Shown here piece by piece: positions 140 through 5,694 of a stretch of 6,480 bases of DNA; positions within the stretch are counted from its first letter, which is position 1; each line of letters opens with the position of its first letter. The notes beneath the pieces are model-generated. The model did not search any database, was not told the DNA's origin, and saw only the letters and a program-made list of their open reading frames with translations. This DNA is from a bacterium (GTDB lineage: Bacteria; CSSED10-310; JAJRTK01). A program made the translations under genes and the position numbers. The DNA is taken from the NCBI GenBank assembly GCA_024278345.1, contig JAJRTK010000037.1, positions 1 through 6,480 on the forward strand, given 5' to 3'.

Positions 140-1243
140 CTAGTCGCACGGCTGCCCCGGATCGCAGCCCCACGGCTCGACCCAGACATCCTGGCGGCTA
201 TTTCCCGCAATCTGGTTCCCGGAACGCCGGATAATCGACTCGTCAGGCCAATCGGTGGTGCCGAAGTTCCAGATATAAATGCCGTAATAGTTCCCCGTAC
301 TGACGTTGTTTTCCAGCAGGTAGCCCGTGGGATTCTGGACGCCCTCGTCACTGATCTCGATGCCCGGGCCCAGGTTATCCCGGAACAGGTTGTTCCGAAC
401 CGTGATCTCCCGCCCGCCATCGATCCAAAGCCCGCCGTCCCACCAATCGTCGGAGCTGGCATCGAGATCGTTCTCGTAGGCCTCATTATTCTCGAACAAT
501 ACGTCCACCGAATCCTCAATGAGGAATCCACCGCCGATGTTGCGGTAGGAACGATTCTCCCGGATCACGGCTCGGGTCAGGTGAAAAGTGTTGATGCCCG
601 TGCCCATGAGGTAGTCGGGAAACACCTGCGGATTTGGGCCGTTCTGGTAGACCTCATTCCCTTCGATGAGAATGTCCGTGGAATCCTCCACGTGGAGGCC
701 GTACCCCTCGATCTCCCAGCTCTTGACCTGAACCGCGGTGCCGTTTTCATGGATCACCAGGTCGCGAAAGATGAGATCGGAGCTGGCCGACCCCGCGATG
801 CCAATGTCAGTGAAGCCTTTGATTTCAAGGTTTTCGAACAACATATTCAGACAATGGTCGCAAAAGATACCCAGCGGCTCCTTGCCCTGGCCATCGAGGA
901 CGGGGCGGCCCTTCAACCCCTTGATGACCGTCCGGGCCGTGGCTCCGCCACAGGTGAGGATCCCAACCGGCACCGTGTAGGCGCCAGGCAAAACGAAAAG
1001 GGTATCTCCGGGGCCAATCTGCTCCAAGGCCGCGCTCAGCGTCCGAAGAGCCTCAGTTTCCGAGCTGCCGCTTGCACCATCATCACCGTTCGGTGACACG
1101 TAGAGCGACTTCCCAGTCCCCGTGGAAGAACAGGTGACACCGGGAAGATTGTCGTCATCACCTCCACCACAACCAGCCCCCGAAAGGACCAGTAGAACCC
1201 CAAAACAGAACGCTGCCGTCGCTCTCTTGCCATTTCTCATCAT
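140..1243 (-). CDS. Parallel beta-helix repeat lipoprotein
   Basis: The product has 367 residues and is a predicted surface or outer-membrane lipoprotein of unknown substrate. Its N-terminus is basic (KR at 6-7), followed by a hydrophobic stretch and a lipobox-like SGAGC with Cys25. The residue at -3 is Gly, which is acceptable but not ideal. A GGGDDD tether follows. Residues about 47-90 (LYVSPNGDDG, then a conserved PGDTLFVLPGAY) match the DUF1565-type leader of right-handed beta-helix proteins. From about 95 to 350 there are repeated beta-helix coils rich in N and G, such as LIFRDLVIHENGTAV and VLFENNEAYEND. The fold is shared with polysaccharide lyases and epimerases, but I see no catalytic signature. 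Several Cys residues (38, 98, 128, 131, 360, 366) could form disulphides. The ATG has GGAG six bases upstream, and a second ATG follows at once. It lies 68 bp after the amine oxidase and is probably the last gene of the operon. Confidence 0.85.
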   Translation of the reverse strand: MMRNGKRATAAFCFGVLLVLSGAGCGGGDDDNLPGVTCSSTGTGKSLYVSPNGDDGASGSSETEALRTLSAALEQIGPGDTLFVLPGAYTVPVGILTCGGATARTVIKGLKGRPVLDGQGKEPLGIFCDHCLNMLFENLEIKGFTDIGIAGSASSDLIFRDLVIHENGTAVQVKSWEIEGYGLHVEDSTDILIEGNEVYQNGPNPQVFPDYLMGTGINTFHLTRAVIRENRSYRNIGGGFLIEDSVDVLFENNEAYENDLDASSDDWWDGGLWIDGGREITVRNNLFRDNLGPGIEISDEGVQNPTGYLLENNVSTGNYYGIYIWNFGTTDWPDESIIRRSGNQIAGNSRQDVWVEPWGCDPGQPCD

Positions 1244-1311: not shown

Positions 1312-2784
1312 TCAACCGATGACGGCGCGAATCTCTTCCGCCGCTCGCACACCCGACAAGTAAGCCCCGTGCGCCGTCCCCATGTATTCCGAGTCCGTGG
1401 CATCCCCGGCAAAGAAAACCCGATCACCCACGGGCATGGCCAGAATGTCGCACTCCGACAAACTCGCCCCCGGCGGCACGTGAGGATAGGAACCAAGAGC
1501 AAACAAATCGGTGTGCCAACCGCTCCTGACAAATGCCGCCGGCGCGGGAATCCCGCCGCCGAACATCGTCCGGAGATCCCCCATCACCAGCTCCACCGCC
1601 TTCTGATCATTCCATACATTGGCATTCCTTGCCTGATCCCCCACCATGAAGGCCACCAAGGTCTTCTCCACCCCGTCGGGCTCCATGTTCCAAAGCTCCA
1701 TCGCCTGGGAACTCTCTTCCTTGGCCAGGGCAAAAAAGCTTGTCTCCCGCGGCCAAAAAGTCTCATGGAAGCGGAGGATCACCTTGTTCATCGTCCCCAC
1801 GCCCAACCGCTCGATGGCGATCCGCTTGCTCCTTGGCAACTCCGGCTGGAAACGAACCATCCCAGTCTTCAAGACGCCCAAGGGAAGGGTCACCACCACG
1901 CGATCCGCCCGGATCACGTTTTCGTAGACCGGCGGTTGGGCTCCACTTCCGTGACAACCGCCGCAGGCCAGGTTCGGGACAAGAGATTCCGCTGGAGCCG
2001 CACGCAGAACCACACCCTTGCCATCGTAATGAATCTCGGAGACAAAGGTGTCGAACCGGATCTTCAGCCCCTCCGAAAGGCTCTCCGCGAGCTGGCCCAG
2101 GCCGCCAGACACGATCTCGTTGGCCCCCGGAAAGGCGCTCTCCCAATTCGCCATTCCCGCCGCCACCTCCCAGGCATCCACCGCCTCGGGGATCTCCACG
2201 AAAATCCGCGCCGCCAGCCAAAAAAAACGGCGCATCGGCCCGCTCAACCCAAGTTCTCCGTCAAACTTCTCCAAAAGCCGCTGCAACGAGCCGTCCGGCT
2301 CCAGCGCCGCGCGCTCGTAAAACCGCTCCATCCAGCCTTCCACCCGCGCCCATTGGGCATCGGAAAACTCCACACCGTCCACGTCGAACGCCGATTCACT
2401 GTCGTAATCCGTCGCCACGGTCTCCAACCCGAGCCGCTGAGCCATGGCGTAGAGAGGATTCCCCTGAATCCCGTGTATCCACGATGCTCCAAGCTCCACC
2501 CTGGAATCTCCAAGGTCCGTGGAATAAATTCGGCCGCCGACCCTGGAACGAGCCTCGAGCAGAACGACCTCGTGACCCAACGCCTTCAAGCTCGATGCCG
2601 CACCCAAGCCGGCCATTCCGGCACCCACCACCACGATCTTCTCCGAGATCCCCCCACAACCAAACTGCCCCGCAAACAAGGCGCCGGCCATTCCCGCCAA
2701 GCTGCTCCGTAGAAACTGCCGGCGACTGCACTGCCCGGAAAAACGCCGAAATAGCCCACTTCGCTCCACCGCTTCATTCCCCAA
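1312..2784 (-). CDS. Tat-exported FAD-dependent amine oxidase with a CXXCH insertion
   Basis: The product has 490 residues and is a flavin amine oxidase of the polyamine oxidase/LSD1 type, expected to oxidise a C-N bond of an amine with FAD. A twin-arginine motif SRRQFL (20-25) precedes a hydrophobic stretch, so it should be exported folded. Cys43 (QFGCGG) might be an atypical lipidation site. The FAD-binding GxGxxG is at 54-59, the ribose-binding Glu at 77, and RVGGRI and ELGASWIHG lie at 81-86 and 97-105. PLGVLK is at 301-306, and NKV (Lys334) aligns with the flavin-contacting Lys661 of LSD1. The C-terminal FAD motif [20 protein letters not shown] spans 456-475. An insertion at about 262-289 carries CGGCH (274-278), a c-type haem motif not usual in the family. 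The TTG start used here overlaps yjbQ by 11 bp. A GTG at 2769, four bases past the yjbQ stop and with GGGGA eight bases upstream, is an equally good start. The substrate is unknown. Confidence 0.88.
1951..1965 (-). other. CXXCH motif within the amine oxidase gene
   Basis: These codons read Cys-Gly-Gly-Cys-His (residues 274-278). They lie in an extra loop between the strand ending GVVLRAAP and the family-typical [14 protein letters not shown]. In proteins exported to the periplasm CXXCH is the site of covalent haem c attachment. Its presence is read directly from the sequence; haem binding is inferred. A metal site or a disulphide is the alternative. Confidence 0.6.
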
Positions 2785-3196
2785 TGATTTTGATCAAAAC
2801 ACGCTTGCTACGGCGGCCATCGAATTCACCATAGAAGATCCGCTCCCAGGGACCGAAGTCCAACCGACCCGCCGTCACGGCGACCACGACCTCGCGCCCC
2901 ATGATCTGGCGCTTGTGGTGGGCATCTCCATTATCTTCCCCCGTCCGGTTATGGTGGTACTTTTCCGGACTGGGGTCGAACGGAGCCAGTTTTTCCAGCC
3001 ACCTCTCGTAGTCCTCGTGAAGACCCGGCTCATCATCATTGATGAAAACGCTCGCCGTAATGTGCATGGCATTCACCAAACAGAGCCCCTCCCGAACACC
3101 GCTCTCCCGAACCGCTTTTTCCACCTCCGGGGTGATGTTCAAAAAACCCATGCGCCGGGGAACCTTGAACGTCAGGTAACGAGTCGTAGACTTCAC
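2774..3196 (-). CDS. yjbQ: YjbQ/UPF0047 family protein
   Basis: From the chosen GTG the product has 140 residues, close to the usual length of this small cytoplasmic family. Family members such as E. coli YjbQ have been reported to have weak thiamine phosphate synthase activity, and their true role is unsettled. Diagnostic features are [13 protein letters not shown] (42-54, with His45), [15 protein letters not shown] with His60, [20 protein letters not shown] (81-100, with His93/94) and the C-terminal [20 protein letters not shown]. An upstream ATG at 3247 would add 17 residues that do not resemble the family. The GTG at 3196 has a full GGAGG six bases upstream and begins with the family-like [10 protein letters not shown]. 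It is the first gene of the apparent operon, and its stop overlaps or nearly abuts the amine oxidase start. No part appears degraded. Confidence 0.88.
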
Positions 3197-3200
3197 AAAA

Positions 3201-3207
3201 CACCTCC
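3201..3207 (-). promoter_or_regulatory. Shine-Dalgarno site of yjbQ
   Basis: On the minus strand GGAGGTG lies with six bases between GGAGG and the GTG at 3196. This strong site fixes the GTG as the start in place of the ATG 51 bases further upstream. Confidence 0.8.
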
Positions 3208-3257
3208 AAACTTCACCATCAAGGGGTATCCACGCAAGACGGGACATTCGATTGTGC

Positions 3258-3657: not shown

Positions 3658-5694
3658 CTACCGTCCCAAAAGCAAGTTGGCCACCGGTTTCCCGCTCCAT
3701 ACGGCCACCGCGCCAAACGGCTCCACCTGAACCGTGATCTGATAGGGTCCCACAAGCTGCTGGCCGGACGAGTTGACCCAGGTGTCGGCGGCAATGTAGT
3801 AACTTCCGCTACTCACGCCAGGAACGGTGAAAGATGTGTCGTTGCGGGCCAGGCAGGCCTGGTTGTCCAGTCCATCCAGCAGGTGGGGATCGATGTCCAC
3901 TCCGTAACCATCGGAGACGGAGACGGTGACGGTTGCCGCTTGGGAAAGCTCCAGCAAATAAAAGACCTCAGGGCCGGATTCGTCGGTGCTCGGGGCGCAA
4001 GAATAGGAATCGAAGATGTCGCTTGGACCCCCGACCGTATTGTTGGAATCCGTGAAAAGAGCACTGGTGACCAAAATCGGGTCGTCCGCCGAACCGGGCC
4101 GGGGACCGGAATCATCGACGATATTCACGTAGCGGCGCGGCGTATAGCTGGAAAGCTGCGAATAGCTTCTCACCGTGTAACCCACTCGCCAGTAGTTGGA
4201 CCCGGCGTAGGATTCCACCATGTTCAAAGTCCCGTTGCCATTCTCCGCTACCACCATCCGGACATGAGAACCCGCCTTGTTGAAAATGTCCGCCGGCTGG
4301 ATATCATTGACGGAAATCTCATACGAAACCTGGTGCAACGTCGCCGTTCCATATTTGCTCGTCGTGTTCCACGCCCTGGAGACGAAACCGGAACAGTCTA
4401 CTCCCACGGCGCAGGAAACCACCGAAGAGGTATCCTTGTCCCCAGCCAGCTTGCAGGAGGAAAGTCCCGAGTCGAATTCCGACAACGATGAAAAGCCACC
4501 CCACTTGTAGGGAACATGGCTCTGCGTCCCCGTGGTCACCCAACTGGGTGTGGTGGCGCTCCCGCCGCTACAACTCCGGGTACCAACGTTGCAGCTCGAT
4601 ACCGAAAAACTATGCTGCACGTAGCTATCGGCGATGACCAACACCTCGCTCCGGGTCATGGGCGGCCCGGCCGCCCGGCCCGTGGGGGAATCCTTTGCCG
4701 AAGGATCCTCGGGAAATGCAAGGGGCATCGGCCCTACCCAAAGCCGGCGGGGCAGTTCCAGTGTAGCCCCAAGCATACCAGGTTCTGGCAGAAGCCAACG
4801 CACCAGATGAACGCCGTCCAGCGCGGAGGCCATGAGAATCAGATAGCGGCCCCGATCCAGGACGACATCCCGAACCGACTCCGCATATGGCGAGCCAGGG
4901 AGCTCCAATGACCATTCCACGGCGCCATCCACGGCCACCCCGATCAACGTGCGCCTTACCCCGATGGGAGCCGTGGAGACAAACCGCTCCACCTCCAAAA
5001 CCAACCGACCCCACGCGTCTTCATCAAGGATTCGTACCGAGGCCAGGTCACCTTCTCCCAGCCTCAGGCGAACCACTTGCTCCACTTCACCATTGGCGGA
5101 AAAAGACATGAGCCGCGCTGCTGAGCGGTCCTCCAACTCGGCGGTCCATGAACTCCCACCACGAACCACTCCAAGGCGCATCCCCGCCACGGACAACCGG
5201 CCACCGGAAGCCTGGGCTCGCAATTCCCAAGTGCGGGAATCTCCCTCCTCCAGCACCAACGAACCATCAGCGACGAATCCCATGCCCGAAATGAAACGGA
5301 CCTCCGAGGGAAGCCCCCAACGACCGGCAAGCAGGCCATCCGCACCATATTCCATCACCTCTTCAGGATGGCGAACCGCGAAGCCACAGTCTTCCCGCAC
5401 AGCCAAATCGAGGCCATGGGCCTCAACCAGAACCTCGGCAACTAGGCTGAGACTCTCGTTGAGCCGAAGCACCCGCCCCCGCGCTCCATCCAGGATCAGA
5501 ATCTCGCCGGCTCCGCACGCGGCCAGAGCTTGGGGCCCATAACGCCCATCGGGCACTTCCGTCAACGCAAGCTGCCCAAACCCGTTCCCCCATTCCAGGT
5601 TTACCTCCGCCGGTGTGGCCCACACCCAAGATCCTCCCAACAGCGCCGTCCAAATCAAGATCCCTTTGATAGCGCGACTCATCGACAACCTCAT
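3658..5694 (-). CDS. Secreted protein with propeller-like, NlpC/P60-type and PPC-like domains
   Basis: The product has 678 residues. A signal peptide (basic MRLSMSRAIK, a hydrophobic core, cleavage near ATPA at about 26-29) directs it outside the cytoplasm. Residues about 30-325 show repeated beta-rich blocks (ILILDGARGRVLRLNE, ADGSLVLEEGDSR, GRLVLEVERF) like a beta-propeller or NHL-type region. Residues about 350-525 form an NlpC/P60-type cysteine hydrolase domain: YKWGG at 396-400, GVDCSGFVSRAW with the presumed nucleophile Cys434, and AGSHVRMVV with the presumed His477. Glu494 is a candidate third residue. Such enzymes usually cut peptidoglycan peptides. A loop of about 30 residues between WGG and DCSG carries Cys414 and Cys428, and Cys368 and Cys375 lie just before, so disulphides are likely. 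Residues about 536-655 resemble a bacterial PPC (pre-peptidase C-terminal) beta-sandwich. The ATG has GGAG eight bases upstream. It appears to be a single gene, separated from the next by the repeat mosaic. Confidence 0.82.
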   Translation of the reverse strand: MRLSMSRAIKGILIWTALLGGSWVWATPAEVNLEWGNGFGQLALTEVPDGRYGPQALAACGAGEILILDGARGRVLRLNESLSLVAEVLVEAHGLDLAVREDCGFAVRHPEEVMEYGADGLLAGRWGLPSEVRFISGMGFVADGSLVLEEGDSRTWELRAQASGGRLSVAGMRLGVVRGGSSWTAELEDRSAARLMSFSANGEVEQVVRLRLGEGDLASVRILDEDAWGRLVLEVERFVSTAPIGVRRTLIGVAVDGAVEWSLELPGSPYAESVRDVVLDRGRYLILMASALDGVHLVRWLLPEPGMLGATLELPRRLWVGPMPLAFPEDPSAKDSPTGRAAGPPMTRSEVLVIADSYVQHSFSVSSCNVGTRSCSGGSATTPSWVTTGTQSHVPYKWGGFSSLSEFDSGLSSCKLAGDKDTSSVVSCAVGVDCSGFVSRAWNTTSKYGTATLHQVSYEISVNDIQPADIFNKAGSHVRMVVAENGNGTLNMVESYAGSNYWRVGYTVRSYSQLSSYTPRRYVNIVDDSGPRPGSADDPILVTSALFTDSNNTVGGPSDIFDSYSCAPSTDESGPEVFYLLELSQAATVTVSVSDGYGVDIDPHLLDGLDNQACLARNDTSFTVPGVSSGSYYIAADTWVNSSGQQLVGPYQITVQVEPFGAVAVWSGKPVANLLLGR

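Follow-up and report, generated by a model that had tools for sequence, protein, structure and literature searches.

Does a CXXCH motif within an exported flavin enzyme mark a site of haem attachment, and if so, does the haem take part in catalysis? The question is raised by a flavin amine oxidoreductase, referred to below as the oxidase, that is encoded in the 6,480-base contig analysed here (the window) and carries the sequence CGGCH within its FAD domain. The initial annotation proposed that a haem c on this motif, located in the periplasm, takes electrons from the flavin, so that the enzyme would be a dehydrogenase with a built-in acceptor. This proposal is examined below against the sequence and modelled structure of the oxidase, its homologues, and the haem-attachment capacity of its genome.

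The oxidase and its probable export

The oxidase gene (1312..2784, minus strand) has a TTG start and encodes a protein of 490 aa, residues 57-485 of which match positions 1-442 of the 443-position PF01593 profile at 244.3 bits (cut-off 19.8). The FAD dinucleotide-binding motif GAGMAGL (residues 54-60; 2605..2625, minus strand) is invariant or nearly so in homologues. Lys334 (1783..1785, minus strand) is a conserved lysine that would be expected close to N5 of the flavin, a role taken from the published work on this superfamily (PMC12224317), and is Lys in 64 of 66 homologues. These two features and the twin-arginine motif described below had been noted in the initial annotation, and all were found again here. 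The active-site signature is intact apart from residue 461 (1402-1404), which is Asp in the oxidase (FAGDAT) and Glu (FAGEAT) in all 66 aligned homologues. In a quick tree the oxidase forms a long branch (1.96, versus a median of 0.53) whose placement is unsure.

An AlphaFold2 model of the oxidase was built from 67 sequences, with three plasmid rows left out of the alignment, and has a mean pLDDT of 89.9 and a pTM of 0.88. Foldseek and VIA-align matched the model to LSD1 (Z 45-49), to LSD2 and polyamine oxidases (Z 40-47), and to FMS1 (within Z 40-49), and the fold is confidently predicted to be of the LSD1/polyamine-oxidase type. The oxidase shares this fold nearly throughout (rmsd ~2-3 A) with LSD1/KDM1A, LSD2 and the polyamine and spermine oxidases, along with the flavin Lys and the FAD motifs; however, these proteins are only about 23-31% identical to it, lack the CGGCH loop, and are eukaryotic and not Tat-exported.

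A twin-arginine motif, SRRQFLR, is located at residues 20-26 (2707..2727, minus strand) and was recognised by eye in the sequence SRRQFLRSS. The Pfam TAT_signal profile scores the oxidase at 19.3 bits, just short of its 22.7 cut-off, and TatC is encoded in the same genome; judged from its sequence, the oxidase is probably exported by the Tat pathway. Cys43 is a candidate lipoprotein site and might be lipidated, although the QFGC that leads up to it is a poor lipobox. Apart from its loop, the oxidase looks like an ordinary amine oxidoreductase with a probable location in the periplasm.

The oxidase gene may form one operon with both of its neighbours, as suggested by the spacing of the three genes. 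The upstream gene, of the YjbQ/UPF0047 family (2774..3247, minus strand; PF01894, 128.6 bits; TIGR00149, 107.4 bits), overlaps the oxidase start by 11 bases, and the downstream gene, encoding a probable exported beta-helix protein (140..1243, minus strand; PF13229, 84.5 bits), begins 68 bases past the oxidase stop. The window also encodes a probable exported protein of 678 aa (3658-5694, minus strand) with no Pfam or NCBIfam match at 1e-3, the middle of which contains VDCSGFVSRAW, resembling by eye an NlpC/P60-type motif.

The CGGCH motif and its insertion

Reading of the ORF on the minus strand places CGGCH at residues 274-278 (1951..1965; codons TGC GGC GGT TGT CAC), as the initial annotation had it. 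The insertion of about 28 residues reported to surround it is also real, its length being corrected to 24 residues by alignment: P264-Y287 (1924..1995, minus strand), with boundaries accurate to +/- ~2 residues. The first residue of the motif lies 22 residues before V296 of a conserved strand, and alignments with five and with 87 homologues place the insertion between two strands of the FAD domain that are joined by a short turn in the homologues. At 67%, the GC content of the insertion differs little from the 62% of the whole gene, and the GC3 of the insertion is lower.

Nothing in the insertion itself resembles a cytochrome. In the model, a short helix is predicted at residues 265-272 and residues 274-278 have pLDDT values below 50, from which the insertion is taken to be modelled as a floppy loop without a cytochrome domain. 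No folded cytochrome c domain was detected in the oxidase chain by Pfam, and the insertion amounts to only 24 residues. Inspection of these residues showed the loop to lack an obvious second haem ligand, as there is no Met and no His besides H278, and C445 is the sole further cysteine in the folded domain beyond the loop pair. Searched alone, the insertion had no match in Pfam, nothing significant among cytochromes and other solved structures (the best match being DnaJ, E = 0.79), and only weak matches (E >0.1) in its own genome. Strand order suggests that the loop may sit at the nucleotide side of the FAD domain, where the adenine would probably be closer to it than the flavin ring, a placement that the length of the loop makes indecisive as to its distance from the flavin.

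The insertion is private to the oxidase within the sequences compared. Neither it nor any CXXCH is present in 91 homologues, comprising the 87 that were aligned and four more from a protein search in the phylum of genome G378; all are among the matches listed and are less than 40% identical to the oxidase, the closest included. They span Chloroflexota, Cyanobacteriota, Pseudomonadota, Actinomycetota, Planctomycetota, Bacteroidota and other groups, and one from the oxidase's own phylum (L009) likewise lacks both insertion and CXXCH. The alignment-guided scan covered the best 80 loci, and closer relatives may exist; single-protein scans of genome contigs and viral contigs yielded no close relatives. 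In the genome set searched, the phylum is represented by eight genomes, and the family and order by the oxidase's genome alone. A DNA pattern specifying CXXCH followed by T-x-P-x-G at the spacing found in the oxidase was also scanned against 386 + 400 genomes (786); it matched the oxidase and two sites whose translations lack this arrangement. Within the sequences and genomes searched, the CGGCH loop arrangement is unique to this oxidase.

The frequency with which CXXCH arises by chance was estimated from 154 ORFs of the oxidase's genome (61,478 aa; Cys 1.2%, His 2.1%). At this composition about 0.0015 occurrences are expected per 490-aa protein, and a chance CXXCH is unlikely in any single protein. 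Across the sample 0.19 were expected versus four seen; by eye, of the three besides CGGCH, two have the look of cytosolic metal sites and the third that of a haem sensor. Scaled up, this composition would give a genome an estimated five or so proteins with a chance CXXCH, of which perhaps one or two would be exported, so that the CGGCH motif, although real, falls within what chance would supply at the scale of a genome.

Capacity for haem attachment and cytochrome-using relatives

The cytochrome c maturation genes for which the initial annotation suggested a search are present: contig C311 carries a System I locus encoding CcmE, CcmF, CcmB, a CcmC-like assembly protein, and an ABC ATPase in the CcmA position. 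The genome contains four matches to PF01578 and twenty to PF00034. A larger ORF sample, deliberately enriched in contigs with previously recognised cytochromes, contained 23 ORFs with CXXCH, most of which are plainly multi-haem or single-haem cytochromes, indicating that the organism makes many c-type cytochromes. Proteins with 10 to 21 CXXCH each are encoded at L168:1132-3039, L161:5913-8666 and L151:7631-9202. The histidine-kinase-like protein encoded at L128:1259-3346 has one such motif, CLTCHGSQG, in what is probably its sensor part, and resembles a haem c sensor. By eye, the other exported CXXCH proteins of the sampled genome resemble cytochromes or haem sensors.

Given the SRRQFLR motif, TatC, the Ccm System I locus and the many c-type cytochromes, attachment of haem to CGGCH is possible. 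The recognition requirements of the machinery are also slight. System I needs little beyond CXXCH, and has attached haem to peptides of 12 residues (PMC3601427); in a non-haem shell protein given CXXCH at five sites by engineering, including one as a loop insertion, haem reached high occupancy at four of the sites (PMC6962350). Bacterial CcsBA similarly requires CXXCH only (PMC8112865). Accidental haem modification of the loop is therefore conceivable, as System I accepts short and engineered CXXCH sequences and the other exported CXXCH proteins of this genome are cytochrome-like.

The flavin amine dehydrogenases already published include users of cytochrome c, fused forms among them. NicA2 and Pnao belong to the same superfamily as the oxidase and are Tat-exported enzymes that use a separate cytochrome c (PMC9396064, PMC12224317); their Tat signal has a probable counterpart in the oxidase, a motif recognised by eye that scores below the Pfam cut-off. 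Their CytC is encoded in the operon, whereas examination of ORFs, Pfam and NCBIfam matches within the 6,480-base contig found no c-type cytochrome ORF. The cytochrome docking site of NicA2 and Pnao includes a Trp at the edge of the flavin with a surface Tyr next to it (PMC9396064). Judging from motif spacing, the Trp would correspond to the invariant W423 of the oxidase and the Tyr to S421, and with Ser in place of Tyr at this mapped position a NicA2-type wire is not evident. A 2025 survey listed more than 100 candidate cytochrome c-using members and one subclade with a fused cytochrome; of the Tat-exported members tested that have no cytochrome gene nearby, most react rapidly with O2 (PMC12224317). 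The FAO-CytC fusions of this subclade, 3F, would resemble the oxidase in having CXXCH within the amine oxidoreductase chain, but they consist of an FAO gene fused to a CytC gene, while the oxidase has a 24-residue loop only (PMC12224317). Among the genes flanking the homologues of the oxidase, one plausible cytochrome-like ORF was identified, beside a Chloroflexota homologue (L086:4398-5507, minus strand); it encodes NSCSVCHTS after a hydrophobic N-terminus and is possibly a cytochrome.

Readings of the loop

The reading preferred here, with a probability of roughly 0.6, is that the oxidase is an amine oxidoreductase of the LSD1/polyamine-oxidase branch of PF01593, probably Tat-exported, with CGGCH in a flexible private loop at the protein surface, outside any flavin-to-haem relay. 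Such a protein would fold with its FAD in the cytoplasm and then probably leave through Tat, and it may be a lipoprotein. Once exported it would oxidise an amine and pass the electrons to O2 or, presumably, to an external acceptor, and the loop cysteines in the periplasm would most likely form a putative disulfide or have no special role. Attachment of haem to CGGCH, under whatever reading, is considered unlikely, and within this the working flavin-to-haem relay proposed in the initial annotation is a minority reading that is very unlikely. The relay gains from the co-occurrence of CXXCH and a Tat motif in one protein, from a cytochrome-rich genome that encodes TatC and Ccm System I, and from the known relatives with separate or fused cytochromes; it is opposed by a loop that has neither cytochrome fold nor distal ligand, by the uniqueness of the insertion among the 91 homologues and in the 786-genome pattern scan, by a mapped docking site (about W423/S421, from motif spacing) that would lie away from the loop, and by the contig's lack of a cytochrome gene, most tested Tat-exported relatives of that kind being fast in their reaction with O2. 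In its most specific form, that the 24-residue loop is a minimal haem c site without a cytochrome fold and serves as the built-in one-electron acceptor of the exported oxidase, the proposal is slightly less probable still. The mode of export also argues against a relay. Tat substrates cross the membrane already folded. The substrates of System I, however, are normally delivered unfolded via Sec (PMC3601427).

If haem were attached, it could instead be placed incidentally or structurally by a promiscuous Ccm system, with no flavin relay, since System I recognition barely exceeds CXXCH (PMC3601427, PMC6962350) and the Ccm genes are present; the folded state of a Tat substrate, the possible prior oxidation of the cysteines to a disulfide, and the absence of visible selection leave this quite unlikely as well. 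The stretch CGGCHGSGA might alternatively be a zinc or other metal knuckle resembling one CxxCxGxG repeat of DnaJ, which is improbable: the match of the insertion to the DnaJ Cys-rich domain, made via CDVCHGSGAKPG, includes a similar CHGSGA stretch but is non-significant. The zinc site of DnaJ requires two CxxCxGxG repeats, and the oxidase has a single repeat, with C445 as the only further cysteine in its folded domain. Finally, the insertion could be an artefact of assembly or binning, as it is known from one draft genome only, which is metagenome-like (550 contigs, 87.9% complete) and has no second copy; but the reading frame is open across the insertion, both flanks align with homologues, and its GC content is close to that of the gene, and the probability of an artefact is judged to be remote.

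Should the loop prove to bind haem, a flavin enzyme would have gained a haem relay by means of a short loop, with no whole cytochrome domain needed, which would add a further route to the oxidase/dehydrogenase switches published for this superfamily. If haem is absent, the oxidase would stand as a useful caution that a single protein's CXXCH is not grounds enough for calling it a cytochrome, even when the protein is exported.
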